A stretch of DNA of 41,083 bases from a virus, in the IMG/VR virus record IMGVR_UViG_3300021952_000010, positions 1-41,083 of that record; one strand, 5' to 3'. Position 1 is the stretch's first letter, and every line of letters starts with the position of its first letter. This document shows positions 21,456 through 40,167 of the stretch, piece after piece. Under the pieces are notes generated by a model. That model was not told the DNA's origin and made no database searches. It was given only the letters and a program-made list of their open reading frames with translations. The translations under genes were made by a program, and so were the position numbers.

Positions 21456-21488
21456 TTTTAGGCGCGTGGTAGAGCTCGGAGGTGTGTG

Positions 21489-21851: not shown

Positions 21852-21913
21852 GCTTGCCACAACCGCCTCTCCTGCGGTAAACTCTCGGCCGTTCTTATAG
21901 CCGAGGTTTGTAC

Positions 21914-22714: not shown

Positions 22715-23007
22715 TGGCACCTGTACCGGGCCGCCGTGTGTTGGGTTGGGAGGGGTTGCAACACCCGGGTGATTTTGCATGGCGGCCCGATGAAAATCCG
22801 AATAGAATGATAATCAAATGCCCGTGTGGCTGTGGGGATGTTATTGGGATTTGTGTGGCACCGATGGAACAGTTACCGGGGCGTCCCTCCCCGGTATGGG
22901 ATTGGGATGGTAACTTGGAAAAACCTACGGTCACCCCTAGTATACGTGTTGTGGGTAGCTGTGGGTGGCATGGTTTCCTGACGGACGGTGTTTTTCGGAG
23001 TTGCTAG
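22714..23007 (+). CDS. Small CPCGCG/GWHGFL-motif phage protein
   Basis: ATG 22714 shares a base with the previous stop (TAATG). Contains IIKCPCGCGDVIGI, WDWDGNLEKPTVTPSI and SCGWHGFLTDGVF, the pattern of a small phage family resembling DUF6527-type zinc-binding proteins found near packaging genes. Four Cys and one His can chelate a metal. The role is unknown. Confidence 0.65.
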   Translation: MAPVPGRRVLGWEGLQHPGDFAWRPDENPNRMIIKCPCGCGDVIGICVAPMEQLPGRPSPVWDWDGNLEKPTVTPSIRVVGSCGWHGFLTDGVFRSC

Positions 23008-23010
23008 ATA

Positions 23011-24492
23011 ATGGTAGTCGCCGTAGGAAAGATACCGCCCCCAAAACGAAGGCCTGCATCTGGGCGTGTACAGTTTAGTGAGGCCGCCGCTATTGCCTCA
23101 TTGGCCCGTGCGTCTTTCTATGATTTTGTGCGGGAATTTTGGGGTAGTATCATATCAGAAGAGCCGGTATGGAATTGGCATATCGAGTTCCTTTGTAATG
23201 AGTTGCAGGTGATGGCGGAGCGGGTGTTTCGTGGCGAGACTAAGTTGTATGATTTGATCGTTAATATCCCGCCCGGCACAACCAAATCCACTATCATCTC
23301 GGTTATGTTCCCGGCGTGGGTGTGGACGCGGATGCCGGCCGCCCGGTTTATCTGTGCCAGCTATACCGATAAATTGGCCCTAGACCTCTCCCGTAAATCG
23401 CGTGATATATGCCGTAGTGAGAAGTACCGTGCTTGTTTTCCGGAAGTTGTGATCCGCGATGATCAGGACACAAAGTCGTACTACATGAACCGGCACGGTG
23501 GTAGCCGGTATGCGGTGGGTACCGGTGCCGGTGTGACCGGTTTTCATGCCCATTTTATCCTAATCGACGACCCCATCGATCCATTAGCTGCGGTTAGTGA
23601 AGAAGAGCTCAAAACTGCTAACCGCTGGATGACAGAAACGATTCCAAGTCGCAAGGTGGATAAAAAGGTAACTGTGACCATCCTGGTCATGCAACGTCTC
23701 CACCAAAACGACCCTACCGGCCATTTGTTAAACAAGGACCGGTCTAATATCCGTCATATTTGCTTACCGGCCGAATTATCGGACAAGATAAATCCGCCGG
23801 AGTTGGCGGCTCGGTATGTAGATGGTATGCTGGACCCCGTCCGACTATCGCGGGAAGTTCTGGAAGAGGCGTGGCGAGACCTACTTGATTATGGGTATAG
23901 CTGCCAATTTCGCCAGGACCCTATCCCGCGTGGCGGTGGCATGTTCAAGGCTGATCGCATCCTAATCCGAGCGGTCCCGCCCATGCTAACAAAGGTTGTG
24001 CGGTATTGGGATAAGGCGGCTACCGGTGGTGGTGGTGCCTTTACCGTTGGTTTTAAGATGGGAATGGTACTTGATAAAATAACGAGCGAGCAGCGGTTTT
24101 GGGTTATGGATATTTACCGTGCCCAGGTGGATAGCTGGAGCCGTGAGGTAGAGATCAAGAAAATAGCCAAGGCAGACGGGCGAACGGTGCGGATTGGGTT
24201 GGAACAGGAACCGGGTAGTGGTGGTAAGGAAAGTGCCCAGGCTACGGTCAGCCGGCTAGCCGGGTATAGCGTTGTGATTGATAAGGTGACCGGTGCTAAG
24301 GAATTACGCGCCGACCCGTTTAGCACGCAGGTGAATGCAGGGAATGTGTTTATGGCCCCCGGGGCATGGAATGCCGCATTTATGCAAGAAATATCGTACT
24401 ACCCCCACAGCACGTATAAGGACCAGGTAGATGCCGGGTCCGGTGCCTTTTCGATGTTGGTGCGCCCCCGCCGTCGTGTAGGGGCCTTTTAG
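23011..24492 (+). CDS. terL: Terminase large subunit
   Basis: A 493-residue packaging motor. The ATPase domain has a Walker A-like PPGTTKST at about 87-94 and Walker B HFILIDDP near 181-188. The C-terminal nuclease domain begins around VRYWDKAATGGGG (about 330), with further acidic residues and LEQEPGSGGKESA. Motifs and size match the phage TerL family. It cuts concatemers and pumps DNA into the prohead. Starts at ATG 23011. Confidence 0.92.
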   Translation: MVVAVGKIPPPKRRPASGRVQFSEAAAIASLARASFYDFVREFWGSIISEEPVWNWHIEFLCNELQVMAERVFRGETKLYDLIVNIPPGTTKSTIISVMFPAWVWTRMPAARFICASYTDKLALDLSRKSRDICRSEKYRACFPEVVIRDDQDTKSYYMNRHGGSRYAVGTGAGVTGFHAHFILIDDPIDPLAAVSEEELKTANRWMTETIPSRKVDKKVTVTILVMQRLHQNDPTGHLLNKDRSNIRHICLPAELSDKINPPELAARYVDGMLDPVRLSREVLEEAWRDLLDYGYSCQFRQDPIPRGGGMFKADRILIRAVPPMLTKVVRYWDKAATGGGGAFTVGFKMGMVLDKITSEQRFWVMDIYRAQVDSWSREVEIKKIAKADGRTVRIGLEQEPGSGGKESAQATVSRLAGYSVVIDKVTGAKELRADPFSTQVNAGNVFMAPGAWNAAFMQEISYYPHSTYKDQVDAGSGAFSMLVRPRRRVGAF

Positions 24493-24518
24493 AGAACCCG
24501 AATACTAGGAGTATGTCG

Positions 24519-24923
24519 ATGAATGGTCAATTGGAAGCAAAAGTATCCCCCTACAAGGCCTCGTGCCTCGTCCACCGCGCCGTGTTTGTTATTGGTGCCG
24601 AAACCACCGACATTATCAATGTGGGGGTCACATTGAAGGACGCCCTCTCTCAGGTACCGGGTGGGCGTGCCGGTGTGTTTGCGTATTTGAGCGATGACGC
24701 AAATGGCGACACCGTCACCGGTACCACTCCCACCTCGGTGGCTATTGGCACTAATGGCCTGGCCATTGCAATGGTGGCCGGCAAGGCGTGGCAAATCACC
24801 ACCGAGGCAGATGGTACATTCGATTTGAACATCCAGTATACCGGTGGTGCGGCGACGTACTACCTGGCAATTCGGATGCCCGATGGTCGATTGGTAGTCA
24901 GTGATGCAATCACGTTTGCCTAA
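24519..24923 (+). CDS. Hypothetical beta-rich structural protein (134 aa)
   Basis: ATG 24519 has AGGAG seven bases upstream; ATG 24513 is too close. The sequence is rich in Thr/Gly/Ala/Val with alternating strands and no long helices (LVHRAVFVIGAETTDIINVG; GTFDLNIQYTGGAATYYL), looking like a jelly-roll or Ig-like fold. C-ending codons suggest good expression. A head decoration or fibre role is plausible. Followed by a hairpin at 24,943. Confidence 0.65.
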   Translation: MNGQLEAKVSPYKASCLVHRAVFVIGAETTDIINVGVTLKDALSQVPGGRAGVFAYLSDDANGDTVTGTTPTSVAIGTNGLAIAMVAGKAWQITTEADGTFDLNIQYTGGAATYYLAIRMPDGRLVVSDAITFA

Positions 24924-24942
24924 TCGTTTCGTGGGCCTGCGG

Positions 24943-24979
24943 GGGCGGGTCGGTTGCGTTGTGTGTGGCCGACCCGCCC
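24943..24979 (+). terminator. Intercistronic hairpin before the portal gene
   Basis: GGGCGGGTCGG (24,943-24,953) pairs with CCGACCCGCCC (24,969-24,979), an 11-bp stem with a 15-base loop. No U-tract follows, so it may stabilise or partially attenuate the transcript rather than end it. Confidence 0.5.
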
Positions 24980-25000
24980 TGCGGATAAGGAGTACTGTAG

Positions 25001-26419
25001 ATGATTCTCGTGACCCCCGACAAGAAGGCCCCAAAAACAACTAGTCGGGCTGGCCTGACACTCAACCGTTTCATGTCAATGGTTAGCCGGCTGTGGCGTG
25101 GTGCCGAACCGGACCCTCGCCGTGATATCAATGCGGAGTGCGGCTACCCCGAGCAGATCACTATCGATCAGTACCGGTATAGCTTTGAGCGGAACGGTAT
25201 TGCTACCCGTGTGGTATCCGTATTTCCCGATGAGTGTTGGGCACTACAACCGGAAGTTGTGGAAACGGACGAGGCCGTAGAAACACCGTTTGAGAAGGCG
25301 TGGAAAGAATTCGATACACAGGTGTCCGCTATCCACTACCTCCACCGGGTTGATGTGATATCGGGCATTGGGAACTACGGCCTGTTGTTTATTGGGTTTG
25401 ATGATTTAGTCCCCGGGGACCTGCTAACCAAACCCGCGACACCGGCTCCCGGGCGTAAGGTGTTGTTCTTGCGGGCGTTTGATCAGAGCCAGGTTCAGAT
25501 TGCCGAGTGGGAAACGGACATGACTAGCCCACGGTACGGCCAACCCAAACACTATAACATCACTTTTGCTGACAGTCGCACAGATGAGCCGGGTGGCATT
25601 GGGGTGGACCACACGCAGCGGCGCGTGCATTGGTCCCGGGTGTTGCATGTGGCGGATAACCGCCTATCATCGGACTTCTTTGGTATGCCCCGCCAAATGA
25701 ATGTATATGACCGCTTGTGCGACCTGCGTAAAGCGTTGGGCGGTTCGGCGGAGATGTTGTGGCGTGCAGGTTTCCCTGGACTGTCGTTAGAAACAGATCC
25801 ATCTTTGGGCGATGTGGAACTAAGTGCGGATGATGAGGCGTTTACCCGTAAGCAGGCAGAAGAGTATTCGAATAGCCTGAGTCGCATACTTCTTTTGAAG
25901 GGCATGACGGCTAAAAACCTAGGCGGCAACGTAACCAGCCCCGAGTACCATATCCAGGTACAACTCCAGGCCATTGCCATCACCATTAAATGTCCTTTGC
26001 GGATTTTAATTGGTACGGAGGAGTCTAAGCTATCCAGCACACAAGATAGCAAAACATGGAACAAGCGATTGAAGCTGCGGCAAGATAAATACATCGAACC
26101 TATGCTGTTCCGGCCATTTATTGACCGTATGATACAAATGGGGGTGTTAGCACCGCCCGCCGCCCCTAGCGGTTACACTATCCGTTGGTCTGACCTTAAC
26201 AGCCCCACCGATCAGGACCGTGCGGAAGTGGCCAGCAAAATTACCGAGGCGATGGCGAAGTATGTTGCGGGGGCGGTTGATCAACTTTGCCCGCCGCTGG
26301 AATATCTTACGCTTGTACTTGGGTTTACAACCGTACAGGCACAGGTAATTATCAATGCTGGCGAGGAATACGTGAGTGTGTTTAAGGACATGAACCAGCC
26401 GGTACAAACAAACGTATAG
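25001..26419 (+). CDS. Portal protein, DUF1073 type
   Basis: A 472-residue portal of the DUF1073 family: N-terminal DQYRYSFERNGIATRVVSVFPDECW, YGLLFIGFDDL in the core, SSTQDSKTWN in the stem region, and the typical length. Pfam now names this domain after its anti-CBASS Acb1-like relatives, but that does not mean anti-CBASS activity. The dodecamer forms the head vertex channel. ATG 25001 follows AAGGAG. Confidence 0.85.
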   Translation: MILVTPDKKAPKTTSRAGLTLNRFMSMVSRLWRGAEPDPRRDINAECGYPEQITIDQYRYSFERNGIATRVVSVFPDECWALQPEVVETDEAVETPFEKAWKEFDTQVSAIHYLHRVDVISGIGNYGLLFIGFDDLVPGDLLTKPATPAPGRKVLFLRAFDQSQVQIAEWETDMTSPRYGQPKHYNITFADSRTDEPGGIGVDHTQRRVHWSRVLHVADNRLSSDFFGMPRQMNVYDRLCDLRKALGGSAEMLWRAGFPGLSLETDPSLGDVELSADDEAFTRKQAEEYSNSLSRILLLKGMTAKNLGGNVTSPEYHIQVQLQAIAITIKCPLRILIGTEESKLSSTQDSKTWNKRLKLRQDKYIEPMLFRPFIDRMIQMGVLAPPAAPSGYTIRWSDLNSPTDQDRAEVASKITEAMAKYVAGAVDQLCPPLEYLTLVLGFTTVQAQVIINAGEEYVSVFKDMNQPVQTNV

Positions 26420-26428
26420 AGGTGTGTG

Positions 26429-26884
26429 ATGGATGGGTTTAGAAAATTTGTGTTGGGGTTGGTGCTTGTGTCCGCGAGCCTTGTGGCCATTCACACGGGT
26501 ATTCATGTTGCCCGTGAAAACGAGCATGCCCACCCCCACTCGCTTAGTATAGCGGTCCATGACCCACATGCACGGAGCGGCCGTTGGCCGGCGGTACGGC
26601 GGCAATACATAGAACAGCATGGGGAATGTGCGGCCTGTGGTGCTACGGATGATTTGCAGGTTCACCATGTGCGGCCATACCACCTGTTTCCTGACAAAGA
26701 ACTGGATCCCGATAATCTGATTACGCTGTGCGGTGCCCCACACGGCGGCTGCCACCTATGGCTTGGCCATCTCCGTGATTTTAAGGCCGCTAATCCATTC
26801 GTTAGGGAAGATGCGGCGAGATACCGAAAACACCGCGAAGCCAGAGTGTATGAATTAAAGGATTGGCCAGCGGAGGTGCCCTAA
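26429..26884 (+). CDS. HNH endonuclease-like protein with N-terminal membrane segment (151 aa)
   Basis: ATG 26429 after GAGG. Residues 1-30 form a hydrophobic segment (FVLGLVLVSASLVAIHTGI), then a His-rich linker. HNH core: CAACG-x-x-DDLQVHHVRPYHLFP (about 69-91) and LDPDNLITLCGAPHGGCHLWLG (about 94-115), with a CxxC pair and CH. HNH proteins near terminases usually help packaging, but those are cytosolic; the hydrophobic start is unusual. Coupled to the next gene by TAATG. Confidence 0.75.
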   Translation: MDGFRKFVLGLVLVSASLVAIHTGIHVARENEHAHPHSLSIAVHDPHARSGRWPAVRRQYIEQHGECAACGATDDLQVHHVRPYHLFPDKELDPDNLITLCGAPHGGCHLWLGHLRDFKAANPFVREDAARYRKHREARVYELKDWPAEVP

Positions 26885-27075
26885 TGGGCAAGTCAGAAAA
26901 GCCGCCTATACCGGTTTCCGTGACGTGGCGGAATGGCTCCCATGATAACTGGCATGTGGCTAGGAGGCTTGTGCGAGCCGGATCAGATCATGAGGCTCGT
27001 AGGTCGGTTTGTTTAGAATTTGTGGGCCGTGGGCTGCAGGTTAAAGAGACCTGCGTGGACTACGCTGGAGCGTAA
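26884..27075 (+). CDS. Hypothetical protein (63 aa)
   Basis: ATG 26884 shares a base with the HNH stop (TAATG), deciding the start. Basic protein with PPIPVSVTWRNGSHDNW and ARRLVRAGSDHEARR. Not recognised. Confidence 0.55.
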   Translation: MGKSEKPPIPVSVTWRNGSHDNWHVARRLVRAGSDHEARRSVCLEFVGRGLQVKETCVDYAGA

Positions 27076-27078
27076 TGA

Positions 27079-27912
27079 ATGGCTGCTAATCCCCTGCGTA
27101 TGGATCCCAGCCGTACAACGATGCTGCGGCGGTCCTTTTGTACGGCTATGCGGCAGCGATTTGGTGGCGTGCGACGGGCCGTAGCCGTGGCGCTGTTGGG
27201 TTTGGACGTGTTTGGGCTAAAACCGGCCCACGAACTCGTTACGCACGCCCTGCCGCAACCCAGGGCGTTTGTATTTGGCACCGATGCGGAGAAGGTGGGC
27301 CAATTCCAACAATGGCTTCAGGGTGAGATTGATAGCGGCATATTAGTCAAAGATTGGACTAATGCCTATATCAAGCGTGGGTATGACAAGGGGGTGGAGA
27401 ATGCCTATGCCGCCGCTAACCGCCTGGGGGCTGTAGGTGGTGGGGCGTTCTATTTAGGGGGCAAGGCCCAATTTCTAAGGGATTCGTTCAATGCACAAGA
27501 GAGTATTGAACGACTTCAGTTATTGTATACAAGGAGTTTCGAGTATCTTAGGGGCGTGACTCAGGATATGTCCCGGGATTTGTCCATCCAACTTACGAAT
27601 GGATTTTCCCGAGGCACCGACATCAACGTAATAGCCAAGGAAATGGCTAGCACGATTGATGGGCTTACGCAGAGCAGGGCATTAACAATAGCACGCACCG
27701 AAATCATCCATGCCCATGCGGAGGGGCAGTTGGATAGTTTTGAGCGACTAGGTATGAATGACCTACAGCTCGCCGCCGAATGGGTGACGGCCGGTGGTGC
27801 ATGTCCGAAGTGCTCTGCAATGGCCGGTAGGGTATACACAATTAAGGAGGCGCGGGGGCTTATCCCATTTCACCCTAATTGTCGGTGTGCATGGGTGCCC
27901 GTGTTGCGGTAA
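27079..27912 (+). CDS. MuF/SPP1 gp7-type head morphogenesis protein
   Basis: A 277-residue protein. The C-terminal third is a MuF-like domain: RTEIIHAHAEGQLDSFERLG, then TAGGACPKCSAMAGRVYTI and FHPNCRCAWVPVL, the usual CxxC...HPxCRC zinc-like signature. The N-terminal part is basic and helical. Minor head proteins of this type lie beside the portal and help start capsid assembly or DNA injection. The stop overlaps the next start (TAATG). Confidence 0.85.
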   Translation: MAANPLRMDPSRTTMLRRSFCTAMRQRFGGVRRAVAVALLGLDVFGLKPAHELVTHALPQPRAFVFGTDAEKVGQFQQWLQGEIDSGILVKDWTNAYIKRGYDKGVENAYAAANRLGAVGGGAFYLGGKAQFLRDSFNAQESIERLQLLYTRSFEYLRGVTQDMSRDLSIQLTNGFSRGTDINVIAKEMASTIDGLTQSRALTIARTEIIHAHAEGQLDSFERLGMNDLQLAAEWVTAGGACPKCSAMAGRVYTIKEARGLIPFHPNCRCAWVPVLR

Positions 27913-28322
27913 TGCCTAAACGAGCGGATGTTCTATTTACACCCCAAGATCCAGAAATCCTTGCCCGTAAAATCAAGGCAAGGAAAGAAGCGGACGCTAT
28001 TATCGCCCTAGCGAAAGAGGCGGCCCTCGTCCTGGGTGTGGATCCACACCATTTTTGGGTTATTATTATTCAACAGGCCACGGAAGCAAAAGAGGCCATT
28101 CAACCAACCACTAAACCCAAGACAAAGCTATCCATTAAAGAAGCCCTTAATTTTGAAACTCGCATAGTTCCCCGGGGTTTGTATGCGGGTCGGGCTGTTT
28201 CGGAAGTACCGGATAGTTACTGGGATTGTTGGGAGAAGGATGAATTTGCGGAAGAGTTGCACCTATACCTCCGCAGTGACCGATTCCGTAGGCGCGTGGG
28301 AATGCCCAACTTCCCCGACTAG
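27912..28322 (+). CDS. Hypothetical protein (136 aa)
   Basis: ATG 27912 is the TAATG start; the upstream in-frame codons lie within the MuF gene. Helical N-terminus (ILARKIKARKEADAIIALAKEAA), Lys/Thr/Pro-rich linker, and a C-terminal part GLYAGRAVSEVPDSYWDCW reminiscent of DUF3820-type small proteins (GxYxGxxxxEVPxxYxxW). Family not certain. Confidence 0.6.
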   Translation: MPKRADVLFTPQDPEILARKIKARKEADAIIALAKEAALVLGVDPHHFWVIIIQQATEAKEAIQPTTKPKTKLSIKEALNFETRIVPRGLYAGRAVSEVPDSYWDCWEKDEFAEELHLYLRSDRFRRRVGMPNFPD

Positions 28323-28407
28323 TGGGCTTGCCTCTTCTGGCTGGATTTGGCTAGGCTTGGGCGCGGATGTAATCATTTGGTCCCCTAGCCAACAAGGATG
28401 CCACGCT

Positions 28408-28725
28408 ATGGACACGACTCTTTTGCAGGCCACTATCCGGGCCAAGATGCAGGAACGCATGTCGGCCGCAGGTGCCCCGGAAGGTACCGACGGCCCATTC
28501 CATGTGCTCATTGATGCCGTTGCCGCCGTACTGCAGGACGGTAAAATTACCCAGGCCGACTATCCGGCCGTGGTAGCCGCTGCAACCACCCTCTATGACG
28601 AGGTGTGTGCGACGGTTGACATCCCCGGCGTGCCGGCTATTGTGGAGAAGGCTGCCGAAGCCGTACTCCGCCGTTTGATCGAACCGGGCGTGAAGGCTCT
28701 GTTTGAGCACTTTGTGCCTGCCTAG
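28408..28725 (+). CDS. Hypothetical small helical protein (105 aa)
   Basis: ATG 28408 with AAGGA upstream. Almost entirely helical and Ala-rich: AAVLQDGKITQADYPAVVAAAT, then VEKAAEAVLRRLIEPGVKALFEHF. The DGKIT segment recurs in the proteins at 3,622 and 30,757. C-ending codons suggest high expression. A virion or envelope role is possible from its place. Confidence 0.6.
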   Translation: MDTTLLQATIRAKMQERMSAAGAPEGTDGPFHVLIDAVAAVLQDGKITQADYPAVVAAATTLYDEVCATVDIPGVPAIVEKAAEAVLRRLIEPGVKALFEHFVPA

Positions 28726-28742
28726 TTTCTAGGGGGTGTGCT

Positions 28743-28778
28743 CCGGGGGTTGTTGTGGTTTCGGCCAAACACCCCCGG
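28743..28778 (+). terminator. Intercistronic hairpin before the peptidase gene
   Basis: CCGGGGGT (28,743-28,750) pairs with ACCCCCGG (28,771-28,778), and the outer segments GGGTGTG/CGCACCC lengthen the stem. No U-tract. It sits in the 97-base gap before the peptidase start and marks the start of the accessory block. Confidence 0.45.
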
Positions 28779-28822
28779 GCACGCACCCTGCACCCCACAC
28801 ACTAATATCGGAACTACTGCTC

Positions 28823-29578
28823 ATGTTTTCCGCAATGAAATTAGGAAAGCAGGAAACAAAACACGATGAACGTACCCTGAAATTAGGTGCGTTCGTGAAT
28901 CTCTCTAATCTGCCCCCAGCCCCGGATAGTGCAAATTGGGCCCCTCGTGTTGGTAACTTTCCCGTGTACCTGAATGATCAGATCGGGGATTGTGCCATTG
29001 CCGGTCCGGCCCACATGGTTCAAACATGGACCGCCAATGATGGGAAGGTGTTCACGCCAACCGATGCTCAGGTGGTTGCGGAGTATGAAAAGGTGGGTGG
29101 CTACCGCCCGGGAAATCCATCCACGGACAATGGGTGTGTGTTGTTGGATGTGTTACGGACGTGGCGGAATGTTGGATTTTTTGGGGGGCATCGCATTGGC
29201 GCGTTCGCCACGGTCGAGCCGTCCAACCTCCTGTTGACAAACACATCCATCTACCTGTTGGGTTGTTTGTGTATTGGCCTGGCTTTGCCGGTTGCGGCAC
29301 AAAGTATCGAAGTGTGGGATTTGCCCCGTGTGGGCCGCCGGTTGCCCAGTTGGGCTAAGGGTTCATGGGGTGGGCATTGTGTGGAAATTGTAGGCTACGC
29401 GCCGGGGTGGTACGACATTGTGACTTGGGGGAGGGTGATGCGAATGTCTGTTGATTTCTACCACGCCTATTGCGATGAGTCGTATTGTGCGATCTCGCGA
29501 GATTGGTTGGGACCGGACAATAAGGCCCCAAATGGATTTAATGCTGCTCAATTAACCGAAGCCCTTAAGGTGCTCTAA
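28823..29578 (+). CDS. Papain-like cysteine peptidase-fold protein (251 aa)
   Basis: NDQIGDCAIAGPAHMVQTW (near residue 51) carries the Gln/Cys pair of a papain-like oxyanion hole and nucleophile; GGHCVEIVGY supplies the catalytic His, and VTWG follows at the Asn/Asp position, where Trp/Gly occurs instead. The motifs match a widespread phage/bacterial family of unknown substrate. It has no signal peptide. ATG 28823 lies in a weak ribosome context; ATG 28835 is an alternative. It could cleave a phage or host protein, or act as a peptidoglycan-type hydrolase; neither can be shown from sequence. Confidence 0.75.
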   Translation: MFSAMKLGKQETKHDERTLKLGAFVNLSNLPPAPDSANWAPRVGNFPVYLNDQIGDCAIAGPAHMVQTWTANDGKVFTPTDAQVVAEYEKVGGYRPGNPSTDNGCVLLDVLRTWRNVGFFGGHRIGAFATVEPSNLLLTNTSIYLLGCLCIGLALPVAAQSIEVWDLPRVGRRLPSWAKGSWGGHCVEIVGYAPGWYDIVTWGRVMRMSVDFYHAYCDESYCAISRDWLGPDNKAPNGFNAAQLTEALKVL

Positions 29579-29742
29579 TGGCCCTGCTAGCGACGATGTG
29601 GTTCACGCAGGTACTCGTGCCGATAGTTTATCTTGTGTGCGTACTCCTTTTGATACTTACGGTATCAGAGTACCGGCAAAAGAAAAAGAGGACCTACCAT
29701 GCGAACCCTAGCACTAGCCCTCGTCATCGTTATTTTTTGTAG
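29578..29742 (+). CDS. Small membrane protein (54 aa)
   Basis: ATG 29578 shares a base with the peptidase stop (TAATG). One membrane span (about residues 10-28, VLVPIVYLVCVLLLIL) is followed by a basic stretch (EYRQKKKRTYH). It overlaps the start of the diheme peroxidase gene by 44 bases, so the tail may not be conserved. A holin or anchor role is possible. Confidence 0.55.
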   Translation: MALLATMWFTQVLVPIVYLVCVLLLILTVSEYRQKKKRTYHANPSTSPRHRYFL

Positions 29743-30760
29743 CGGTTCGGCATACTCCCAGGGGTTGCCACCCCAATTCGGGCCGCTTAACATCAAACCG
29801 ACGGCAAAAGAAATCGAGTTGGGGCGGATGTTGTTTTATGATCCCCGCCTCTCTGCCAATGGCCAAATATCCTGCAGCACATGCCACAACCCACAAAATG
29901 GATGGGGTGATGGGCGTGAGTTGGCAGTGGGGATTGCCGATGGGTTGGGTGTGCCGCAGGTGGGACGCCGCCACACCCCTCATATCATAAATGGGTCTTA
30001 TAGTCCGTTAATGTTTTGGGATGGCCGGGTGGTGGATGAAATTGCCCAGGCGCTATTGCCTATGAGTAACCCTATTGAGATGGGTCAGCAGACTGCCCAG
30101 GAAATTTCGGTGAGGTTAAATTTCATCGCCGGATACAATCGAGCATTTGTGGATGCATTTAATGGTGTGGATGTGACTACCCAACGGGCGGTCACGCCAG
30201 AACGTATGGCCCGTGTCTTGGCGGCATTCCAGTCCACTGTAGTGTCTTATGACTCTCCGGCGGACAGGCGATTTGCGGGTGACAAGAACGCCCTCACACC
30301 AGCGGAAGAAGTTGGTTTTCAGATATTTGTCGGTAATGTGCCCGGGCGCACCGGCAATCGTGCGCAATGTCTAGAATGTCACGCCCCACCATTCTACACG
30401 TCCCGGCTTGTGGCTAATAATGGAATGGAGTTTGCCGGCAAATGGGTGATGAATGATCGTGGCAGGCAAGAGTTTTCTCGCCTTGCTGTGGACTTGCGTA
30501 AATTCAAAATTCCCACGCTGCGAGAATTACCTCGCACCGCACCCTATAATCATGCTGGTAATTTTGCCGACATTCACCGTGTTGTGGTGCATTACTCTAC
30601 GGGCGGTAAGCGGTATGATGGGAAAATAGATCCTAATATCGATCGCCGTATACAACCCCTAGATCTTACTGATTCACAAATGAAGTATCTGGAGTTATTC
30701 CTAGAACGGCCCATGATGGGACGCTACTATCCAAATATAGAAGAACCGAGGCTTCCATGA
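29699..30760 (+). CDS. Diheme cytochrome c peroxidase / MauG-like protein, secreted
   Basis: A 353-residue protein with two c-type heme sites: CSTCH at 59-63 and CLECH at 224-228. Other family positions are present: ELGRMLFYDPRLS near 39-51, PHIINGS near 94-100, MFWDGR near 105-110, and APYNHAG at 281-287 (compare PYFHDG). An N-terminal signal peptide (LALALVIVIFC, cleavage near SAYSQG) directs it to the periplasm, where such enzymes reduce hydrogen peroxide with electrons from small cytochromes or oxidise protein residues (MauG). ATG 29699 has AGAGGA upstream. It is coupled to the next gene by ATGA. A diheme peroxidase in a phage virion module is very unusual. Which activity it has cannot be told. 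Confidence 0.9.
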   Translation: MRTLALALVIVIFCSGSAYSQGLPPQFGPLNIKPTAKEIELGRMLFYDPRLSANGQISCSTCHNPQNGWGDGRELAVGIADGLGVPQVGRRHTPHIINGSYSPLMFWDGRVVDEIAQALLPMSNPIEMGQQTAQEISVRLNFIAGYNRAFVDAFNGVDVTTQRAVTPERMARVLAAFQSTVVSYDSPADRRFAGDKNALTPAEEVGFQIFVGNVPGRTGNRAQCLECHAPPFYTSRLVANNGMEFAGKWVMNDRGRQEFSRLAVDLRKFKIPTLRELPRTAPYNHAGNFADIHRVVVHYSTGGKRYDGKIDPNIDRRIQPLDLTDSQMKYLELFLERPMMGRYYPNIEEPRLP

Positions 30761-31632
30761 CCCGTGCGGCAAAAGCATCTACATCCACCACAACAATGAC
30801 AACTGTAAAAACCGGGGCAAAACACACAAGCGTTGCCGCATTCCTGGTAATTGTTTTTTCCTATCTATACAACTCGGGCCTTTTGCACAACATCACACGG
30901 CCACCATCCGCTTCGGCCATAACGGCAGATATCAAGGGTGGGCGTGTGCTGGCGCTCGGTGACACCGGTGTATACCGCGTGAAGGTTAATGGCGGCCTGG
31001 AGTATGGAAACCCTAAGTGGAGTGTCATTGCACCGCCTCAAGAAACCGGAGTGGAGGGTTCTATTAAGGCGGATAGCGATTTTAGGTATGCGGTGGCGGA
31101 GTTTACCCCTACGGTTGAGGGGGAGCACGTACTAACCGCCGCTATCCCCGGGCCGGGCATGACCGTAGCGGATGCGCAGTTTAGGATTAAGGTGGTGCCG
31201 GTAGAGTTCGATAACCACGACCCGGCACCCACACACAATGATCCGAATATGCCACCCCAGCCGGCACCCGTGCCATTGCCGGCCACGCCCACCGTGGCGG
31301 ATTATTTTAGGCAGGCTTTAGCGGACGTGCATTCGGATACCTATGCGGATGATGTGCGGGCGGTTGCAGGATATTTTCGTGCTACTAGCGGCCGGGCTGC
31401 AACCGGTTTACTTCAGCCACACGATGATGTTGTTGCTGAGATTATCAAAGCTGCCCAACTTGGCCTGGGAGAGGACCGATACCAGAACTGGGCCTTGTTT
31501 TTTTCTGAGGTGCAGGCTATAGTGAATGACTTACGAGATCAGGGCAAGATCACGGACGCTCCATCGGCAGCACCCATACTGGCCGAAATGGCGGAGATCC
31601 TTAGCCCAACGAAGAAGGTTCGACACCCCTAA
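30757..31632 (+). CDS. Membrane-anchored Ig-like protein (291 aa)
   Basis: ATG 30757 overlaps the peroxidase stop. Residues about 25-45 form a signal anchor (VAAFLVIVFSYLYNSGLL). Residues about 55-150 look like a beta-sandwich (GDTGVYRVKVNGG, EGEHVLTAAIPGPGM, IKVVPVEFD), probably an Ig/PKD-like fold. A Pro-rich hinge (about 160-178) leads to a helical C-terminal domain containing RDQGKIT. It would sit in the periplasm attached to the inner membrane. Translational coupling suggests a partner of the peroxidase. Confidence 0.65.
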   Translation: MTRAAKASTSTTTMTTVKTGAKHTSVAAFLVIVFSYLYNSGLLHNITRPPSASAITADIKGGRVLALGDTGVYRVKVNGGLEYGNPKWSVIAPPQETGVEGSIKADSDFRYAVAEFTPTVEGEHVLTAAIPGPGMTVADAQFRIKVVPVEFDNHDPAPTHNDPNMPPQPAPVPLPATPTVADYFRQALADVHSDTYADDVRAVAGYFRATSGRAATGLLQPHDDVVAEIIKAAQLGLGEDRYQNWALFFSEVQAIVNDLRDQGKITDAPSAAPILAEMAEILSPTKKVRHP

Positions 31633-31649
31633 TGTAAAAGGAGTTTCCC

Positions 31650-32183
31650 ATGAAGCGAGTGATTGTTTCGTTATGCTTGGCCCTTGTGGCCGTGACCATC
31701 CTTGGGGCATGCGCCTCGGAAGCGTGTGCCCAGCAGTGCAATGTGAATGCCAATGCCAACGCTCAATCCAGTGCGGCTGCATTGCAACAACAGGCCCTGT
31801 TGGCGAATTTGTTTAGCCAGAGCCTCAACAACACGCAGGCGGCCCGCAGTGCCACGGCCTCGGCCAATGCGGGTGCGGCGGTGCAACAGCAGGCTATTAA
31901 CCCGGCTACGTTGCAGGCGGCCCTACGTGCGTTAGCGGCGGCTCAACCTGTTCCGAGTGGTGCTGCGGCTACTGCATCTATCAACACCCCGCTACCCAAT
32001 CAGAGCCTTGCCGCGTTGCTTGGTGCGTTGAATACGCCCAATAACACGCTTGCGACTAGTGTGGGATGTAGTGGCGGGTCTTGCAGCCGCAGCCGAGCGG
32101 TGTCACGTGTGGGTGCCGTACTACGCCTGCCCGTGCGACCGGCGGTGCAGCGTAGCCGCGCGGTTAGCGTGGTCCGCACGTAG
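31650..32183 (+). CDS. Lipoprotein with Asn/Gln/Ala-rich region (177 aa)
   Basis: ATG 31650 follows AAAAGGAG. Signal peptide with lipobox LGAC (Cys21); mature part starts ASEACAQQC. The middle is low-complexity Asn/Gln/Ala/Ser (ANANAQSSAAALQQQ), and the end is Ser/Arg-rich with CSGGSC. I recall similar Cys/Arg-tailed secreted proteins from planctomycetes, without proof. Probably outer-membrane or periplasmic. Confidence 0.65.
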   Translation: MKRVIVSLCLALVAVTILGACASEACAQQCNVNANANAQSSAAALQQQALLANLFSQSLNNTQAARSATASANAGAAVQQQAINPATLQAALRALAAAQPVPSGAAATASINTPLPNQSLAALLGALNTPNNTLATSVGCSGGSCSRSRAVSRVGAVLRLPVRPAVQRSRAVSVVRT

Positions 32184-32240
32184 TAATCCAGGACGGAGCC
32201 TGGGCCTTTATGGCCTGGATGGGTACACGGAGGAACCTAT

Positions 32241-32287
32241 AAGGCGGTGTGTTGGCTAATCACCGACACACCGCCTTTGCTTTTCTA
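32241..32287 (+). terminator. Intrinsic terminator after the lipoprotein gene
   Basis: AAGGCGGTGTGT (32,241-32,252) pairs with ACACACCGCCTT (32,266-32,277), a 12-bp stem with a 13-base loop, followed by TGCTTTTC. It ends the accessory block transcript or attenuates readthrough into the holin-like gene and the capsid genes. Confidence 0.7.
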
Positions 32288-32303
32288 TGGAAGGGATGGG
32301 GTT

Positions 32304-32570
32304 ATGGAAGGGATGGAGCAGATGTCGGAGATTGCCAAACTAATCACCCAAATTGGCCTGGTGGGGGCGATTACGGTGGTGACGGTGTATTTTGGTAGCC
32401 GGCAACTCAATAAATTCTATGATGCGACGGCGGAGAGGGAGACCCGCATGGCAGCTCGCATAGAAAAACTTGAGGATGATTACAAGGACAAGCTTGTGGG
32501 TATTATCCAAGCCAATACGGCCGCCATGCAGGCAATGGCCACGTCTTTGGATCGGCACCGCACTGGCTAG
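32304..32570 (+). CDS. Holin-like membrane protein with coiled-coil (88 aa)
   Basis: One N-terminal membrane span (IGLVGAITVVTVYFG), then a charged coiled coil (YDATAERETRMAARIEKLEDDYKDKL), the layout of BhlA/hemolysin XhlA-type holin-like proteins. The start is uncertain: ATG 32304 (AAGGG upstream), 32313 or 32322 are in frame; a short direct repeat ATGGAAGGGATGG precedes. The only lysis-type candidate beside the peptidase-like gene. Confidence 0.6.
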   Translation: MEGMEQMSEIAKLITQIGLVGAITVVTVYFGSRQLNKFYDATAERETRMAARIEKLEDDYKDKLVGIIQANTAAMQAMATSLDRHRTG

Positions 32571-32632
32571 TCCTGTTGCATGCCGGGGGCCCCTTCGGTA
32601 TATTGCTCTGAGCCATTAGTAAGGAATTCACT

Positions 32633-34258
32633 ATGCTAGTTCGAGTCATTGCCAATACCGTTGGCCCCGTGCGGACCGAAAAGCTCGAGGGCCGCGACCA
32701 TTGGGTTGCTCCAATGGTGATGCTTGTGGAGGGTGTGGTTTGCGGCAGCAACGGCCCGCTCTACTACCCCCGCAATGAACTCAATGCAAAACCATCCGCC
32801 TGGAATCACATGCCCATTGTGGTTTACCACCCGGAATATGACGGGCAACCAATTTCGGCGCGCAGCCCAGACATTCTTAATAAGATGAAGATTGGCGTTG
32901 TGTTAAATGCTGGTTGTAAGGTAGAAATTATCAATGGGATGGAATTGGCTAAGTTGACGGCAGAGGCATGGATCGATAAGGAGCGTGCAGGTAAAATCGA
33001 CCAGCGGGTGGTTAATGCCATCACTACGAATAATGCAATGGAAGTTTCTACCGGACTCTCCGCTCAATTTGGCCTAGGTGGCACTTGGAATGAGCGGCAA
33101 TACATCGCTACGGTTCAGAATATGGAACCGGACCACCTTGCTATCCTTCCGGACCAGGTAGGTGCGTGCAGCCTGGCCGATGGTGCTGGGTTGTTGGTCA
33201 ATCAGGAAGAGATTAAACGGAGCTTTGTGTATAATAGTGGGTGGACGCAGGCGAAACGGGATGCTACCCCATTAGCGGACTTTGGTGATCCAGATAAGCG
33301 GGCATACCCGGTTGAAACGCAGAAGGACCTTGAGGATGCCGCTCGCCTCATCGGCCATAGTGATCGGCCGGAATATGTGAAGAAGAGACTCATTGCTATT
33401 GCCAAACGGAAGAATCTTGCGTTACCGGCTAGCTGGGTCCAAAATGAACAGAGTTATAGTGCCCGTAGTGGGGCTGTACGGACGGCGGTTTATGATCAGT
33501 TTAATGGGGATGTGTACCTTGAGGATGTATATGAAGATTTCGCAATCATAGAAAAAGATGGGGGACTTTGGAAAGTCCCCTATACAATCGATGCGGGGGT
33601 TGCTACATTAGGCACCCAGCTCGATAGTGTTCTATTAGTATCAGAATACCGGACGGCCGACGGAACCTTTGTTGGGAACGCATCGACCGCCACGAAAAAT
33701 CGCAAGGAGGATAAACTCGTGGACAAGAAGAAAGTTATCGATGCCCTGATTGCCAATACGGCCAGTGGGTGGGTTGAGGCGGACCGTGAGTTGCTCATGG
33801 CCATGACCGAGCCTGCCCTGGAAAAGATCACGGCCAACGCCAAATCCGCCGCGCCGCCCAAGAAAGAAGAAGAACAGAAGCCGCCGGTCACTCCCCCGGT
33901 GACAAACGAAAAGAAGGGCTTCGACGATCTTCTCAAGGAAGCAGACCCCACCACGCGGGCCTCCATCGAGAATATGCGGCGGCTTTACGACCAACGCAAA
34001 ACTGCCCTGGTTGCGGCCATCATCGCAAACAAGGCCAACACGTTCACGGCTGATCAGTTGAACGCGAAGGATGTGGCAGAGTTGGAAGCCATTAACAACC
34101 TCGCCACCCCCACACAGGCCCCCACACAGGCCCCGGTTGGTGGACCGTTGTACATGGGCAGCTTTGGTGCCCCGCCCACCGTGGCTAACACCCAGGGCGT
34201 GGACGAGAAGCAGGATGCCCTGGTGGCTCCGGCCTGGGACGCCAAGATCAGCGGCTAG
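32633..34258 (+). CDS. Prohead protease / scaffold fusion (541 aa)
   Basis: Residues 1-190 resemble the DUF2213-type prohead protease (WVAPMVMLVEGVVCGSNG; NHMPIVVYHPEYDG; NAMEVSTGLSA). Residues about 220-270 carry a DUF6582-like segment (DPDKRAYPVETQKDLEDAARLIG). From about residue 362 the protein becomes a charged helical scaffold with a Pro-rich stretch and ends near a Pro/Gly tail. A protease fused to its scaffold is common. ATG 32633 has AAGGA seven bases before. An internal start is listed separately. Confidence 0.8.
   Translation: MLVRVIANTVGPVRTEKLEGRDHWVAPMVMLVEGVVCGSNGPLYYPRNELNAKPSAWNHMPIVVYHPEYDGQPISARSPDILNKMKIGVVLNAGCKVEIINGMELAKLTAEAWIDKERAGKIDQRVVNAITTNNAMEVSTGLSAQFGLGGTWNERQYIATVQNMEPDHLAILPDQVGACSLADGAGLLVNQEEIKRSFVYNSGWTQAKRDATPLADFGDPDKRAYPVETQKDLEDAARLIGHSDRPEYVKKRLIAIAKRKNLALPASWVQNEQSYSARSGAVRTAVYDQFNGDVYLEDVYEDFAIIEKDGGLWKVPYTIDAGVATLGTQLDSVLLVSEYRTADGTFVGNASTATKNRKEDKLVDKKKVIDALIANTASGWVEADRELLMAMTEPALEKITANAKSAAPPKKEEEQKPPVTPPVTNEKKGFDDLLKEADPTTRASIENMRRLYDQRKTALVAAIIANKANTFTADQLNAKDVAELEAINNLATPTQAPTQAPVGGPLYMGSFGAPPTVANTQGVDEKQDALVAPAWDAKISG
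33719..34258 (+). CDS. Scaffold protein from an internal start (179 aa, nested)
   Basis: GTG 33719 is in frame with the protease gene (codon 363) and has a near-perfect AAGGAGG (33,704-33,710) eight bases upstream. Codon usage also changes here from mixed to strongly C-/G-ending, like the neighbouring capsid genes. This matches the lambda C/Nu3 arrangement, where the scaffold is made in excess from an internal start. The fold is helical with a Pro/Glu/Lys-rich middle. The exact start is inferred. Confidence 0.7.
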   Translation: MDKKKVIDALIANTASGWVEADRELLMAMTEPALEKITANAKSAAPPKKEEEQKPPVTPPVTNEKKGFDDLLKEADPTTRASIENMRRLYDQRKTALVAAIIANKANTFTADQLNAKDVAELEAINNLATPTQAPTQAPVGGPLYMGSFGAPPTVANTQGVDEKQDALVAPAWDAKISG

Positions 34259-34316
34259 TTGCCGTTGTTGGGGTTTTTGACACAAACAACATCATTATGA
34301 AATAAGGAACCTGACC

Positions 34317-35255
34317 ATGAGTTTGCAGCGGATTGCCCTGCGATGTGTTGGCCGGCAAGAAGAGGGTCTTGCCGGCGCGGCCGGCATCAAGCCGGGCCAT
34401 TTGGTTGAATTGGCCGGCACGGCTTCGGCCATCGGCACACCCTACTACCGGGCCCACAGTACCTACGGCGGCTCGGCCGAGAAGTTTTTTGTGGAAGAAG
34501 ATTCGTTGCAGGGTGGAACCATCCTCGACGCGTATGCGAGCGGTGCCCCAATGAAGTTGCGGCAAGCCATGCCGGGCGATTGGGTGTTGGGGCGTTTGCC
34601 GGCCTCGGCTTCGGCCGTTGTGTTGGGCGACAAGCTCATCTCCAATGGTACCGGAACGTTGGTGTTGCCAACCTCTGCCGGAACCCACACGCTTTACGCC
34701 AATACGGCCGCCTCCGCCGCCGTGAGCAACACGACCACGGAAACGGCCTTTGACAAATCGTATACCATCCCGGCCAACCTGCTGGTTGCCGGTGATGTGC
34801 TCACGATCAAGGGTCAGGTGATTGCCACCGCAACCAACAGCACCGACACACTCAACATCAAACTGAAGTTGGGCTCGACGGTGTTGGTTGCCTCCGCCGC
34901 TGTGGACGTTGCAAACAACGACGTGGTGTTTTTCGAGATCACCGTGCTGGTGCGGACTGCAGGTGCCTCGGGTACCTATGTTGCCGCCGGCCATTGTTCG
35001 ACCGTGGGTGCCGCCGGTACGGTGACCCAACGCGCCGCGTTTGTTGCCAGTACCGCCATTGACACCACCGCCACCAATGCCATCACCGTGACGGCGACGT
35101 GGTCGGCCGCCAGCAGCGGCGATAGTGTGCGGCTAGACGTGTTGGATGTTGAACGCTCGGCCGTTAGCCCCCGCTCGTTGCTGTGCGTGGCACAGGAATC
35201 GGTGGACAACAGTGCCGGCACGGACGAGGCTATGATCAAGGTGCGGGTGTTGTAA
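34317..35255 (+). CDS. Head decoration protein with inserted beta domain (312 aa)
   Basis: ATG 34317 with AAGGAA eight bases upstream. The ends (ALRCVGRQEEGLAGAAGIKPGHLVEL, GSAEKFFVEEDSLQG and the final SLLCVAQESVDNS) look like a DUF2190-type capsid cement protein; the central 115-285 region is a Thr/Ala/Val-rich beta sandwich (LTIKGQVIATATNSTDTLNI), perhaps a protruding jelly-roll. Very C-rich codons indicate high expression. Placed between scaffold and major capsid genes, as for decoration proteins. Confidence 0.75.
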   Translation: MSLQRIALRCVGRQEEGLAGAAGIKPGHLVELAGTASAIGTPYYRAHSTYGGSAEKFFVEEDSLQGGTILDAYASGAPMKLRQAMPGDWVLGRLPASASAVVLGDKLISNGTGTLVLPTSAGTHTLYANTAASAAVSNTTTETAFDKSYTIPANLLVAGDVLTIKGQVIATATNSTDTLNIKLKLGSTVLVASAAVDVANNDVVFFEITVLVRTAGASGTYVAAGHCSTVGAAGTVTQRAAFVASTAIDTTATNAITVTATWSAASSGDSVRLDVLDVERSAVSPRSLLCVAQESVDNSAGTDEAMIKVRVL

Positions 35256-35279
35256 CACCCGCACGGGGCAGTATTTTTC
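35241..35279 (+). terminator. Hairpin with U-tract after the decoration gene
   Basis: GTGCGGGTGT (35,241-35,250) and ACACCCGCAC (35,255-35,264) pair over 10 bp with a 4-base loop that contains the decoration stop codon. TATTTTT follows at 35,272-35,278. It may attenuate or process the transcript between decoration and capsid genes. Confidence 0.6.
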
Positions 35280-35335
35280 CTTTACTGAAACTCACACGGC
35301 GTGGACGCCAAAACCTGACTTAGGAGAGTACACGG

Positions 35336-36427
35336 ATGTTGAACTTCATTATGAATGGCCAGGGCCACGGTGACCTTGGCGTCGCGCTTGCCGCTCAAAA
35401 CATGGACCCAAACCTGATGCGGCCGTATCTGGCCAACACCAACATGGGCCAACAGAACGTTGGTTACGTGACGGTGAACACCCGAGGGCCGGACGGCAAG
35501 ATGACGCCGAAGGCTCGCCCCGTGGTGGTCAACGCCAACTCCACGCTCCGTAAGGAGGAATGGGAGTACCTTGACCGCACCGTGATGCTGGCTAGCCGCC
35601 AACGGCTGAAGGCATGGGCGGACCTGCGTGCTGCCAACAGCTTTGCCATGCCCAACGGGATGGGCCACACGGTGCTCCAGACCCAGGCCATGAGCGACCC
35701 GGGCGAAGCTTCGATCTCGATGGAAGCCAACCCACAAAGCAGCAACGACCGCCCGTTGTTTGATTTGACCAACCTGCCGCTCCCCATTATCCATAGTGAG
35801 TTCACCGTGGGTATGCGTGAGTTGGCAACCTCCCGCAATTTTGGGCAGGGGTTGGACTTCTCGATGGCCGAGGCTTGCAGCCGCCGTGTTGCGGAATCGG
35901 TTGAGCGGCTCACGATTGGCTCGTTGGGCAGTTACACGTTTGGTGGTGGTAGCGTGTACGGGTACACCAATTACCCATACCGCATCACTGCCACCATCAC
36001 CAGCCCGACTGCCGTGGGTTGGGTGCCGGCAACGCTGATCAACGAAGTTTTGGCTATGCGTAAGGCTAGCCAGGACGCCAAGCACTACGGCCCCTGGGTG
36101 ATCTACAATGGTCTCGCCTGGGATCAATACTTGGATGTTGACTACTCGGCCGCGAAGGGCGACAACACTCTCCGTGATCGTTTGAAGAAGATCAACGGGG
36201 TTAGTGATGTTCGTACCCTTGACTTCTTGAGTGGCTACGACCTCATCATGGTGCAAATGACGAGCGACGTGTGCCGTGCGGTGGTGGGTGCCGATCTCAC
36301 AACCATCCAATGGGAGTCGCGTGGCGGCCTTAACATGCACTTCCTTGTGATGTGCATTTGCGTGAGCCAAATGCGCAAGGACTTCTACGGCAACACGGGC
36401 CTCGTACACGCCACCGTTGCCCCGTAG
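35336..36427 (+). CDS. Major capsid protein, HK97/encapsulin-like
   Basis: A 363-residue HK97-fold protein close to phage capsid proteins of the encapsulin-like type: LRKEEWEYLDRTVMLASRQRL, LPLPIIHSEFTVGMREL, FSMAEACSRRVAESVE and a P-domain with WVIYNGLAWDQYLDVDYS. ATG 35336 follows TTAGGAGAG. Strong C-ending codons fit the most expressed virion protein. No protease delta domain is obvious at its N-terminus; scaffold is provided by the neighbouring gene. Confidence 0.88.
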   Translation: MLNFIMNGQGHGDLGVALAAQNMDPNLMRPYLANTNMGQQNVGYVTVNTRGPDGKMTPKARPVVVNANSTLRKEEWEYLDRTVMLASRQRLKAWADLRAANSFAMPNGMGHTVLQTQAMSDPGEASISMEANPQSSNDRPLFDLTNLPLPIIHSEFTVGMRELATSRNFGQGLDFSMAEACSRRVAESVERLTIGSLGSYTFGGGSVYGYTNYPYRITATITSPTAVGWVPATLINEVLAMRKASQDAKHYGPWVIYNGLAWDQYLDVDYSAAKGDNTLRDRLKKINGVSDVRTLDFLSGYDLIMVQMTSDVCRAVVGADLTTIQWESRGGLNMHFLVMCICVSQMRKDFYGNTGLVHATVAP

Positions 36428-36457
36428 GCGGCCTTTGTGGTTGCCGTGTGTGTTTTT

Positions 36458-36498
36458 GCCTAGGCGGGTGCCGCGTTAAACCTCGGGCCCGCCTAGGC
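36458..36498. terminator. GC-rich hairpin after the major capsid gene
   Basis: GCCTAGGCGGG (36,458-36,468) pairs with CCCGCCTAGGC (36,488-36,498), an 11-bp perfect stem with a 19-base loop. TTTTT lies on the left side and only GGTTTATC on the right, so as a plus-strand terminator it is weak; it may lower expression of the downstream genes relative to capsid. Confidence 0.55.
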
Positions 36499-36538
36499 GG
36501 TTTATCAACCCCCTAGTTGTTTTGCAAGGACGTGAATC

Positions 36539-36967
36539 ATGGCTAAGTTTCGCTTCAAGGTTCTGGAAGGCCTTCATTACGAAGGCACCCGGTGCTACGC
36601 AAAGGGCGATGTCATCGACACGGATAAAGACCTCTCGGTCTTTGTCAATAAGTTTGAGCGTATTTATGCTCAGGTGCCCGTGGCCCCGGTTCAGGAAGCC
36701 GCCCCAGTGGCTCCCGTGTCGGTAGCCGTTGCTGCCGAAGATCCGGAAGAAGGTGACGCCATCCCGGCAGGCCGAGAGTTTGGTGAGGATGTGACCAGCA
36801 CATTCACCAAAGCGGCGAGTGCCGGCGTGTTGGTATTTCGCGGCAAGGACCGTAAATGTACGGTCGTGAGTGAGGTGGAGCCGACACTGGCCCTCAATGA
36901 TACCCCGCTCACGAAGGTCCAGACCTCCGAGTTCATTGACAAGTTGATTGAGCAACGCGGCAACTAA
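36539..36967 (+). CDS. Hypothetical structural protein (142 aa)
   Basis: ATG 36539 with AAGGA upstream. The first 45 residues (FRFKVLEGLHYEGTRCYAKGDVIDTDKDLSVF) look like a small beta domain often found in head-completion proteins. A Pro/Ala/Val linker (50-75) precedes a C-terminal mixed domain (GVLVFRGKDRKCTVV). Between capsid and connector genes, so virion-associated. Confidence 0.65.
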   Translation: MAKFRFKVLEGLHYEGTRCYAKGDVIDTDKDLSVFVNKFERIYAQVPVAPVQEAAPVAPVSVAVAAEDPEEGDAIPAGREFGEDVTSTFTKAASAGVLVFRGKDRKCTVVSEVEPTLALNDTPLTKVQTSEFIDKLIEQRGN

Positions 36968-36979
36968 GGACGGTGGGTA

Positions 36980-37393
36980 ATGCCCCGCACCACGGCCACG
37001 GCTGTAGCGAAGTTGATTGAATGGGACCAAACACTGGTGCCCAGCCTAGACCCATTCATCGAGACCGCCAACTCCGTTACAACCCAGGCCTGTGGGGCGG
37101 CGGGGTATGATGCCCCAACACTGGAACTCATTGAGCGGTGGCTATCAGCCCATTTTTATAGCACCCTAGACATGAAGGCCGCGTTTGAGCACGCCAGTGG
37201 ACAGCAGGGCGGTGTTTCAACATCGTACCAGTATAAGGTAGATATTGGGTTGAATGCCACGGTGTATGGGCAACAGGCTATGCGCATTGATACCAAGGGC
37301 AAGTTAGCCCAAATTGAGCGGACGCAGAAGACAGGGGGTGTTCGCAAGCCGAGTGTATTGTGGTTAGGGGTGCCTCGCCCGGGAGGGTGTTAA
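36980..37393 (+). CDS. Head-tail connector protein, DUF4054-like
   Basis: A 137-residue protein. LDPFIETANSVTTQACG, LELIERWLSAHFYSTLD and YQYKVDIGLNATVYGQQAMRIDTKGKLAQIE match the pattern of DUF4054-type adaptors (helical bundle, then YGQQA-x-x-xDTxGxL). Such proteins dock on the portal. ATG 36980. The end ...WLGVPRPGGC abuts the next gene with no gap. Confidence 0.8.
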   Translation: MPRTTATAVAKLIEWDQTLVPSLDPFIETANSVTTQACGAAGYDAPTLELIERWLSAHFYSTLDMKAAFEHASGQQGGVSTSYQYKVDIGLNATVYGQQAMRIDTKGKLAQIERTQKTGGVRKPSVLWLGVPRPGGC

Positions 37394-38002
37394 ATGGGCC
37401 TCCTGACCCGAATGCTGCAACGTGACTTCCTTGTGTATTGGCATAAAACGGGCCTTGGCCGTAATGGTTTGGGCATCTTCCGAGGACCCGTAGAGTACCC
37501 GTGCCGATGGCAGGATGGGGCGGTGAATGCCTTAAAGGCACAAGAAGAGCACATAGTCGCAGCTACTACGGCTTTTGTGGGTGTAGATCTTGTGTTGGGT
37601 AGTTTGGTGTGGCATGGTCGCCTGGCCGACCTTCCCACATTACCACGGCCGCTCTACGAAATAACCTCCCTTGGTAAAATCCCAACCCTCCGGTATAAAG
37701 GTTACTTGCGGCCATTAGGGCTGAGCTTTTACCGTGAAAATATCGATCCGGACGCATACACCATGAAATGGGCCGTACAGGATGTTGCCTATACCGGTGC
37801 CGTGATAGACCTGGGCCGCGAGGTGTTGGCCACGGATGTAGTTCGCATTGCTGTTGATAATGGCAGCGAACGCACCTTGGTTTATATGAGTGGTAAGGAT
37901 TTTGATCTTGTTCCGCCGCAATCCGTTGACCTGACTAAATTAGGTTTGGGCAGCGGGGATTTGTTGCAGATTGATAATTATGGCACCCCGGTAGGAGTGT
38001 AG
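37394..38002 (+). CDS. Head-tail or tail completion protein (202 aa)
   Basis: Starts at ATG 37394 directly after the connector stop. Mixed alpha/beta: MLQRDFLVYWHKTGLG, RGPVEYPCRWQDGAVN and GYLRPLGLSFYRENID. Its position after the connector is that of a stopper or tail-terminator protein, and its start resembles such small head-completion proteins, but I recognise no specific family. Confidence 0.6.
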   Translation: MGLLTRMLQRDFLVYWHKTGLGRNGLGIFRGPVEYPCRWQDGAVNALKAQEEHIVAATTAFVGVDLVLGSLVWHGRLADLPTLPRPLYEITSLGKIPTLRYKGYLRPLGLSFYRENIDPDAYTMKWAVQDVAYTGAVIDLGREVLATDVVRIAVDNGSERTLVYMSGKDFDLVPPQSVDLTKLGLGSGDLLQIDNYGTPVGV

Positions 38003-38004
38003 CC

Positions 38005-38406: not shown

Positions 38407-38417
38407 GGAGTGAGACG

Positions 38418-39557: not shown

Positions 39558-39585
39558 GCGTTGCCGACGCACAAGGAATTCAAAG

Positions 39586-39936: not shown

Positions 39937-39944
39937 GATCGGTG

Positions 39945-40163: not shown

Positions 40164-40167
40164 CGTA

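Follow-up and report, generated by a model that had tools for sequence, protein, structure and literature searches.

The gene at 29699-30760 of the virus contig analysed here (the window, a whole IMG/VR record of 41,083 nucleotides) encodes, almost certainly, a phage MauG-type diheme enzyme, and it is very probably part of a conserved cassette in planctomycete phages rather than a lone oddity. The common core of the cassette is a protease, the MauG-type enzyme (MauG below) and an Ig-like membrane protein (Ig), usually joined by a secreted, Cys-containing, Trp-free protein (QCN) and a TM/coiled-coil protein. Literature searches on phage MauG or diheme peroxidases, on planctomycete phages and lysis, and on viral heme genes found nothing relevant. 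The use by phages of a cassette with a diheme MauG-type enzyme appears not to have been described before, and would be the first conserved viral use of such an enzyme found. The genes and features of the window on which this reading draws are the following.

25001-26419 and 27079-27912, same strand as MauG: portal and MuF genes
28408-28725, plus strand: p1, small helical protein upstream of the protease, assigned by position
28823-29578 (open reading frame from 28736), plus strand: papain-like cysteine-peptidase-like protein in the protease slot (PHROG 19005, E 7e-27)
29578-29742, plus strand: small one-TM protein, joined to the peptidase gene by a TAATG overlap and overlapping the MauG start
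29699-30760, plus strand: MauG-type diheme c enzyme, 353 aa, ATG start (open reading frame, Pfam, structure model)
29699-29758, plus strand: predicted signal peptide, approximately residues 1-20, from hydropathy only
29873-29887, plus strand: first heme c motif CSTCH, residues 59-63
30368-30382, plus strand: second heme c motif CLECH, residues 224-228
30757-30760, plus strand: ATGA overlap of the MauG stop and the Ig start
30757-31632, plus strand: membrane-anchored Ig-like (beta-sandwich) protein with a C-terminal helical domain; homologues lie beside MauG in relatives
31650-32183, plus strand: QCN, secreted protein with a signal peptide, Ala/Gln/Ser-rich, with Cys motifs, an Arg-rich tail and no Trp or Tyr
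32304-32570, plus strand: one-TM and coiled-coil protein, holin- or spanin-like by architecture only
32633-34258 and 35336-36427, same strand as MauG: scaffold-like and capsid genes

The reading frame lies exactly where it was first placed, and the features then read from it were borne out: the CSTCH and CLECH heme motifs together with TAPYNHAG, a hydrophobic N-terminal export signal (by hydropathy), and coupling to the next gene, whose start at 30757 falls inside the ATGA overlap. The profile search suggested as a check returned Pfam CCP_MauG (PF03150) far above threshold (E 4.4e-42; 144.7 bits vs. a cut-off of 25.6), and a PHROG search with the protein gave no family match. When the protein was shuffled 100,000 times, two CxxCH motifs never arose; the two of the real protein lie in cytochrome c domains, of which sequence and structure model show two.

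Replication genes occupy one strand of the window, and the opposite strand carries TerL, portal, MuF, scaffold-like and capsid genes. MauG sits between MuF and the scaffold-like gene, in agreement with its predicted position among head genes. A second record, IMGVR_3300021956_000059, is 100% identical to window positions 21401-41083 (19.7 kb) and runs 9.4 kb past the window end into tail genes; inspection of that extension by eye revealed no peptidoglycan hydrolase. As for the partners, p1 of the window has no significant sequence match to other p1 copies, and its counterparts are assigned by position (L003:6481-6810, L122:5538-5864 and others). The papain-like protein, a putative peptidase with the motifs IGDC ... 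GGHC ... VTWG read by eye, has no Pfam or PDB match; in phage MW202816 an amidase gene is overlapped by that of a PHROG 19005 homologue.

Scans of IMG/VR and one genome scan answered the suggestion to look for the gene beside protease genes in related phages: ten other divergent phage or prophage loci share the cassette (G002, G003, G004, L119-L122, L123, L135 and L162), with protease, MauG and Ig together. In G002 (68 kb) the order is p1, S8 subtilisin, MauG, a small protein, Ig, QCN and TM/coiled coil, and in G003 it is TerL, portal (both named by eye), S8, TM, MauG, Ig and QCN. G004, the Pirellula MAG PB1.007 (contig PNKZ01000014.1), has p1, S8, papain-like, TM, MauG, Ig and QCN in a prophage region (about 94-146 kb) that also has genes for integrase, resolvase and repressor-like HTH proteins and adjoins chromosomal genes such as glycerol kinase (chromosomal names read by eye). 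L119-L122 have p1, S8, MauG, Ig and QCN; L135 has p1, S8, MauG and an Ig gene cut by the locus end. In L123 and the Planctomycetia genome locus L162 (G050), a putative protease with an HExxxxxxD motif (SHELLEMLYDP and SHELLEMLADA, found by eye) precedes MauG, Ig and a QCN-like protein. The protease slot is thus filled by a subtilisin in eight loci, an HExxxxxxD protein in two and the papain-like protein in the window. An ATGA or GTGA overlap follows MauG in 9/9 cassettes checked; in G002 the gene after MauG is the small protein, which itself overlaps Ig. Hosts are established for two carriers (at least two loci lie in Planctomycetia genomes) and presumed for the rest, and the cassette could serve as a marker for planctomycete phages.

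Between G002 and the Pirellula prophage, MauG is the best-conserved member of the cassette (86% identity), and in the same comparison its dN/dS of 0.11/0.87, about 0.13, indicates purifying selection. A quick maximum-likelihood tree that included cellular homologues put nine cassette MauGs in one clade (SH-aLRT 84), with Planctomycetota among its nearest neighbours; in a first tree, which had four phage members, the support was 99. Repeated capture of a host gene is excluded for the cassette by this single clade. Another virus contig encodes a lipoprotein-like diheme peroxidase (L124:6842-7819) with a thioredoxin-like gene nearby; it falls elsewhere in the tree, has no cassette and is a separate acquisition.

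The Ig partner is more widespread than MauG. An Ig profile matched in 33 of 398 Planctomycetia genomes, and among 14 Ig loci inspected MauG was present in one (L162) and absent from 13 (L163-L175), so MauG is inessential to the wider module. In the neighbourhoods listed for these 13 loci a papain-like protein is adjacent, three Pirellulales loci also have the Ig and papain-like pair, and the Ig locus L175 adjoins a capsid-like gene. This pairing seems to be a module of planctomycete prophages that has not been described before; the broader module looks like protease plus Ig, with MauG and QCN added in one lineage. In a second Pirellula prophage-like region (L176:4129-7088, contig C18 of G004), p1 and S8 are followed by a secreted protein of 484 aa that has a single CxxCH, a tail rich in Gln and Arg and no Pfam or PDB match; TerL and a portal-like gene lie downstream. 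This protein may be a further heme c protein that fills the place of MauG.

In classical cytochrome c peroxidases the high-potential heme has a Met ligand, whereas the window protein has Tyr there by alignment to MauG. The description 'diheme cytochrome c peroxidase / MauG-like' in the original prediction therefore holds for the MauG/CcpA superfamily and fails for the classical peroxidases. The AlphaFold2 model of the window protein (45 aligned sequences) reached a pLDDT of 90, and its best solved match was MbnH (PDB 6e1c, TM 0.77), with cytochrome c peroxidases and MauG also among the best. With residues counted from the printed alignment, Y299 aligns to MauG Tyr294 and W107 to MauG Trp93, and Q117, P121 and E127 take the positions of Gln103, Pro107 and Glu113 along the same ungapped stretch. 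These equivalents, the fold and the two c-type hemes are shared with MauG of Paracoccus denitrificans (TTQ biosynthesis; PDB 3l4m). Tyr occupies the Tyr294 position in 8/9 aligned cassette proteins; L123 and L162 have Phe there, and the counterpart of Trp93 is missing from L122, L123 and L162. Two residues ahead of the second heme motif, at the site that we take to be the substrate-interface residue Trp199 of MauG (numbering after PDB titles), the window protein has A222, and the alignment shows Trp there in 0/9 cassette proteins. A specific TTQ-like cofactor role finds no support, given this absence and a score of 170 against the curated cut-off of 443.9 for MauG sensu stricto (TIGR03791); no methylamine dehydrogenase partner was seen in the cassette.

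MbnH/MbnP pairs (also SACCP/MopE and CorB) are similar in that MbnH is the top structural match and a MauG-like gene adjoins the gene of a secreted partner. They differ in that the window protein scores 167 against a curated cut-off of 362.9 for the MbnH family (TIGR04039) and that the genes around it encode Ig, a protease and a Cys protein; the genes on both sides gave no Pfam or NCBIfam match, MbnP included. The CcpA/MacA peroxidases (PDB 4aam, 2vhd) share the fold and the N-terminal catalytic residues, but the cassette enzymes have Tyr (or Phe) in place of Met at the second-heme ligand and a different operon context. Judged by its ligand position, the window enzyme is of MauG type, yet it belongs to neither of the two curated families, MauG or MbnH.

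Enzymes like MauG and MbnH modify proteins whose genes lie near their own, and c-type heme attachment is periplasmic. We give slightly better than even weight to a protein-oxidising role for the phage enzyme. The host Sec system would export it, the host cytochrome c maturation system would supply its hemes, a dependence on host heme attachment that had been anticipated and is supported here, and in the periplasm it would oxidise a protein substrate, most likely Ig, the membrane partner translated along with it, or else Cys-rich proteins of the wall. The earlier idea that it oxidises a partner protein fits the co-translated Ig best. One Trp is kept in 8/9 Ig proteins, albeit at a site typical of Ig cores (the model of the Ig structure has a low pLDDT of 63). 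The idea does not extend to Trp oxidation in QCN, which cannot be a tryptophan substrate because none of nine QCN proteins contains Trp (and Tyr occurs at most once). Conversion of Trp to kynurenine in MopE/MbnP has been discussed (PMC3621798). Oxidation of the phage Ig protein would extend MauG-like chemistry to a new candidate substrate.

For phage exit from bacteria whose walls are reported to be mainly protein, the cassette of an integrated Pirellula prophage supplies concrete candidates for a solution by protease plus oxidase. Walls of Planctomycetales are described as protein-rich, with cysteine-rich YTV proteins, and most members as lacking peptidoglycan genes (PMC8567305). In such protein-walled hosts a protease, not a peptidoglycan hydrolase, might be the wall-breaking enzyme, and MauG, the cassette protease and the TM proteins could together remodel or dismantle the envelope late in infection. 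This role of the whole cassette in lysis or exit, drawn from its architecture and the absence of hydrolases, is the reading that we favour, though only tentatively; a more specific version, in which the protease replaces the endolysin and the oxidase modifies Ig or host Cys-rich wall proteins to permit envelope rupture, is doubtful. Like phage lysis cassettes of holin, endolysin and spanin, the genes are compact and co-oriented, and their products include an unexported hydrolase besides small TM and TM/coiled-coil proteins. The S8 proteins match intracellular subtilisins best and have no evident N-terminal export signal, so that they would depend on a holin, as endolysins do. Unlike known lysis cassettes, the hydrolase here is a protease, and a diheme enzyme and secreted Ig and Cys proteins are added. 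Pfam families of peptidoglycan hydrolases, which divergent lysins could escape, were absent from 60 Pirellula prophage proteins and 53 window proteins, and Amidase_2 from eight related virus contigs, which may be incomplete; for G002 and G678 the families considered were the top 25. The Pirellula MAG, possibly incomplete too, gave no match to PBP transpeptidase, whereas E. coli and nine other controls did. The wall argument is not universal, because G050, host of the L162 cassette, has a PBP transpeptidase. A prohead protease is an unlikely identity for the subtilisin: G678, which carries L122, has a separate S78 prohead protease, so the L122 subtilisin is probably not one, and in G002 and G004 the subtilisin lies away from head genes.

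Lysogenic conversion or superinfection exclusion, in which the protease, Ig, secreted Cys protein and MauG would alter the cell surface and block other phages or predators, is a minority possibility. Secreted and membrane proteins without assigned function suit a moron, two carriers (the G004 prophage and G002) have temperate genes, and in both the cassette stands apart from structural genes. In the window and G003, however, it lies inside the late packaging/head run on the same strand, and its two small TM or TM/coiled-coil genes and unexported subtilisin look more lysis-like.

Detoxification, with the enzyme guarding the infected cell from H2O2 as a cytochrome c peroxidase or respiratory auxiliary, is unlikely. 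MauG is a poor peroxidase, and the window enzyme has, as MauG does, Tyr for Met at the sixth-ligand position. The peroxide protection envisaged in the original prediction is consistent with membership in the superfamily of bacterial cytochrome c peroxidases and with the retained core Q117, P121 and E127, but leaves the constant coupling to Ig and protease across divergent phages unexplained, and no other redox genes were recognised in the cassette.

Cross-linking or modification of structural proteins during virion maturation is very improbable: the neighbours of the gene in the window and in G003 are packaging/head genes, but the signal peptide and c-type hemes point to the periplasm, whereas heads assemble in the cytoplasm, and G002 and G004 have the cassette at a distance from their head genes. 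One window protein, probably the capsid (35336-36427), gave a weak Linocin_M18/encapsulin match in a scan without named members; an encapsulin-type peroxidase cargo is excluded, the enzyme being exported. Chance insertion, host contamination or misassembly can practically be dismissed: the GC content of the gene is slightly lower than the phage average (0.51 vs. 0.55), but the assembly join that would betray such an origin did not appear, related phages do carry the gene, and the identical second contig and ten divergent carriers in the same order, with one clade and a dN/dS near 0.13, rule out misassembly or a lone capture.

Other genes of these phages were recorded in passing. One window protein, which the scan did not name, matches DUF6260, and the product of 4139-5062, judged by sequence, is probably the PALP (pyridoxal-phosphate enzymes) match, unusual in a phage. 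G678 (L177-L181) encodes GDP-mannose dehydratase/epimerases, a DegT aminotransferase, a sulfatase and a putative ADP-ribosyltransferase domain. Genes for CsrA, a chaperonin-10 protein and a sigma-70-like factor occur in G002 (L096-L099) as well as in the Pirellula prophage (L102-L105).
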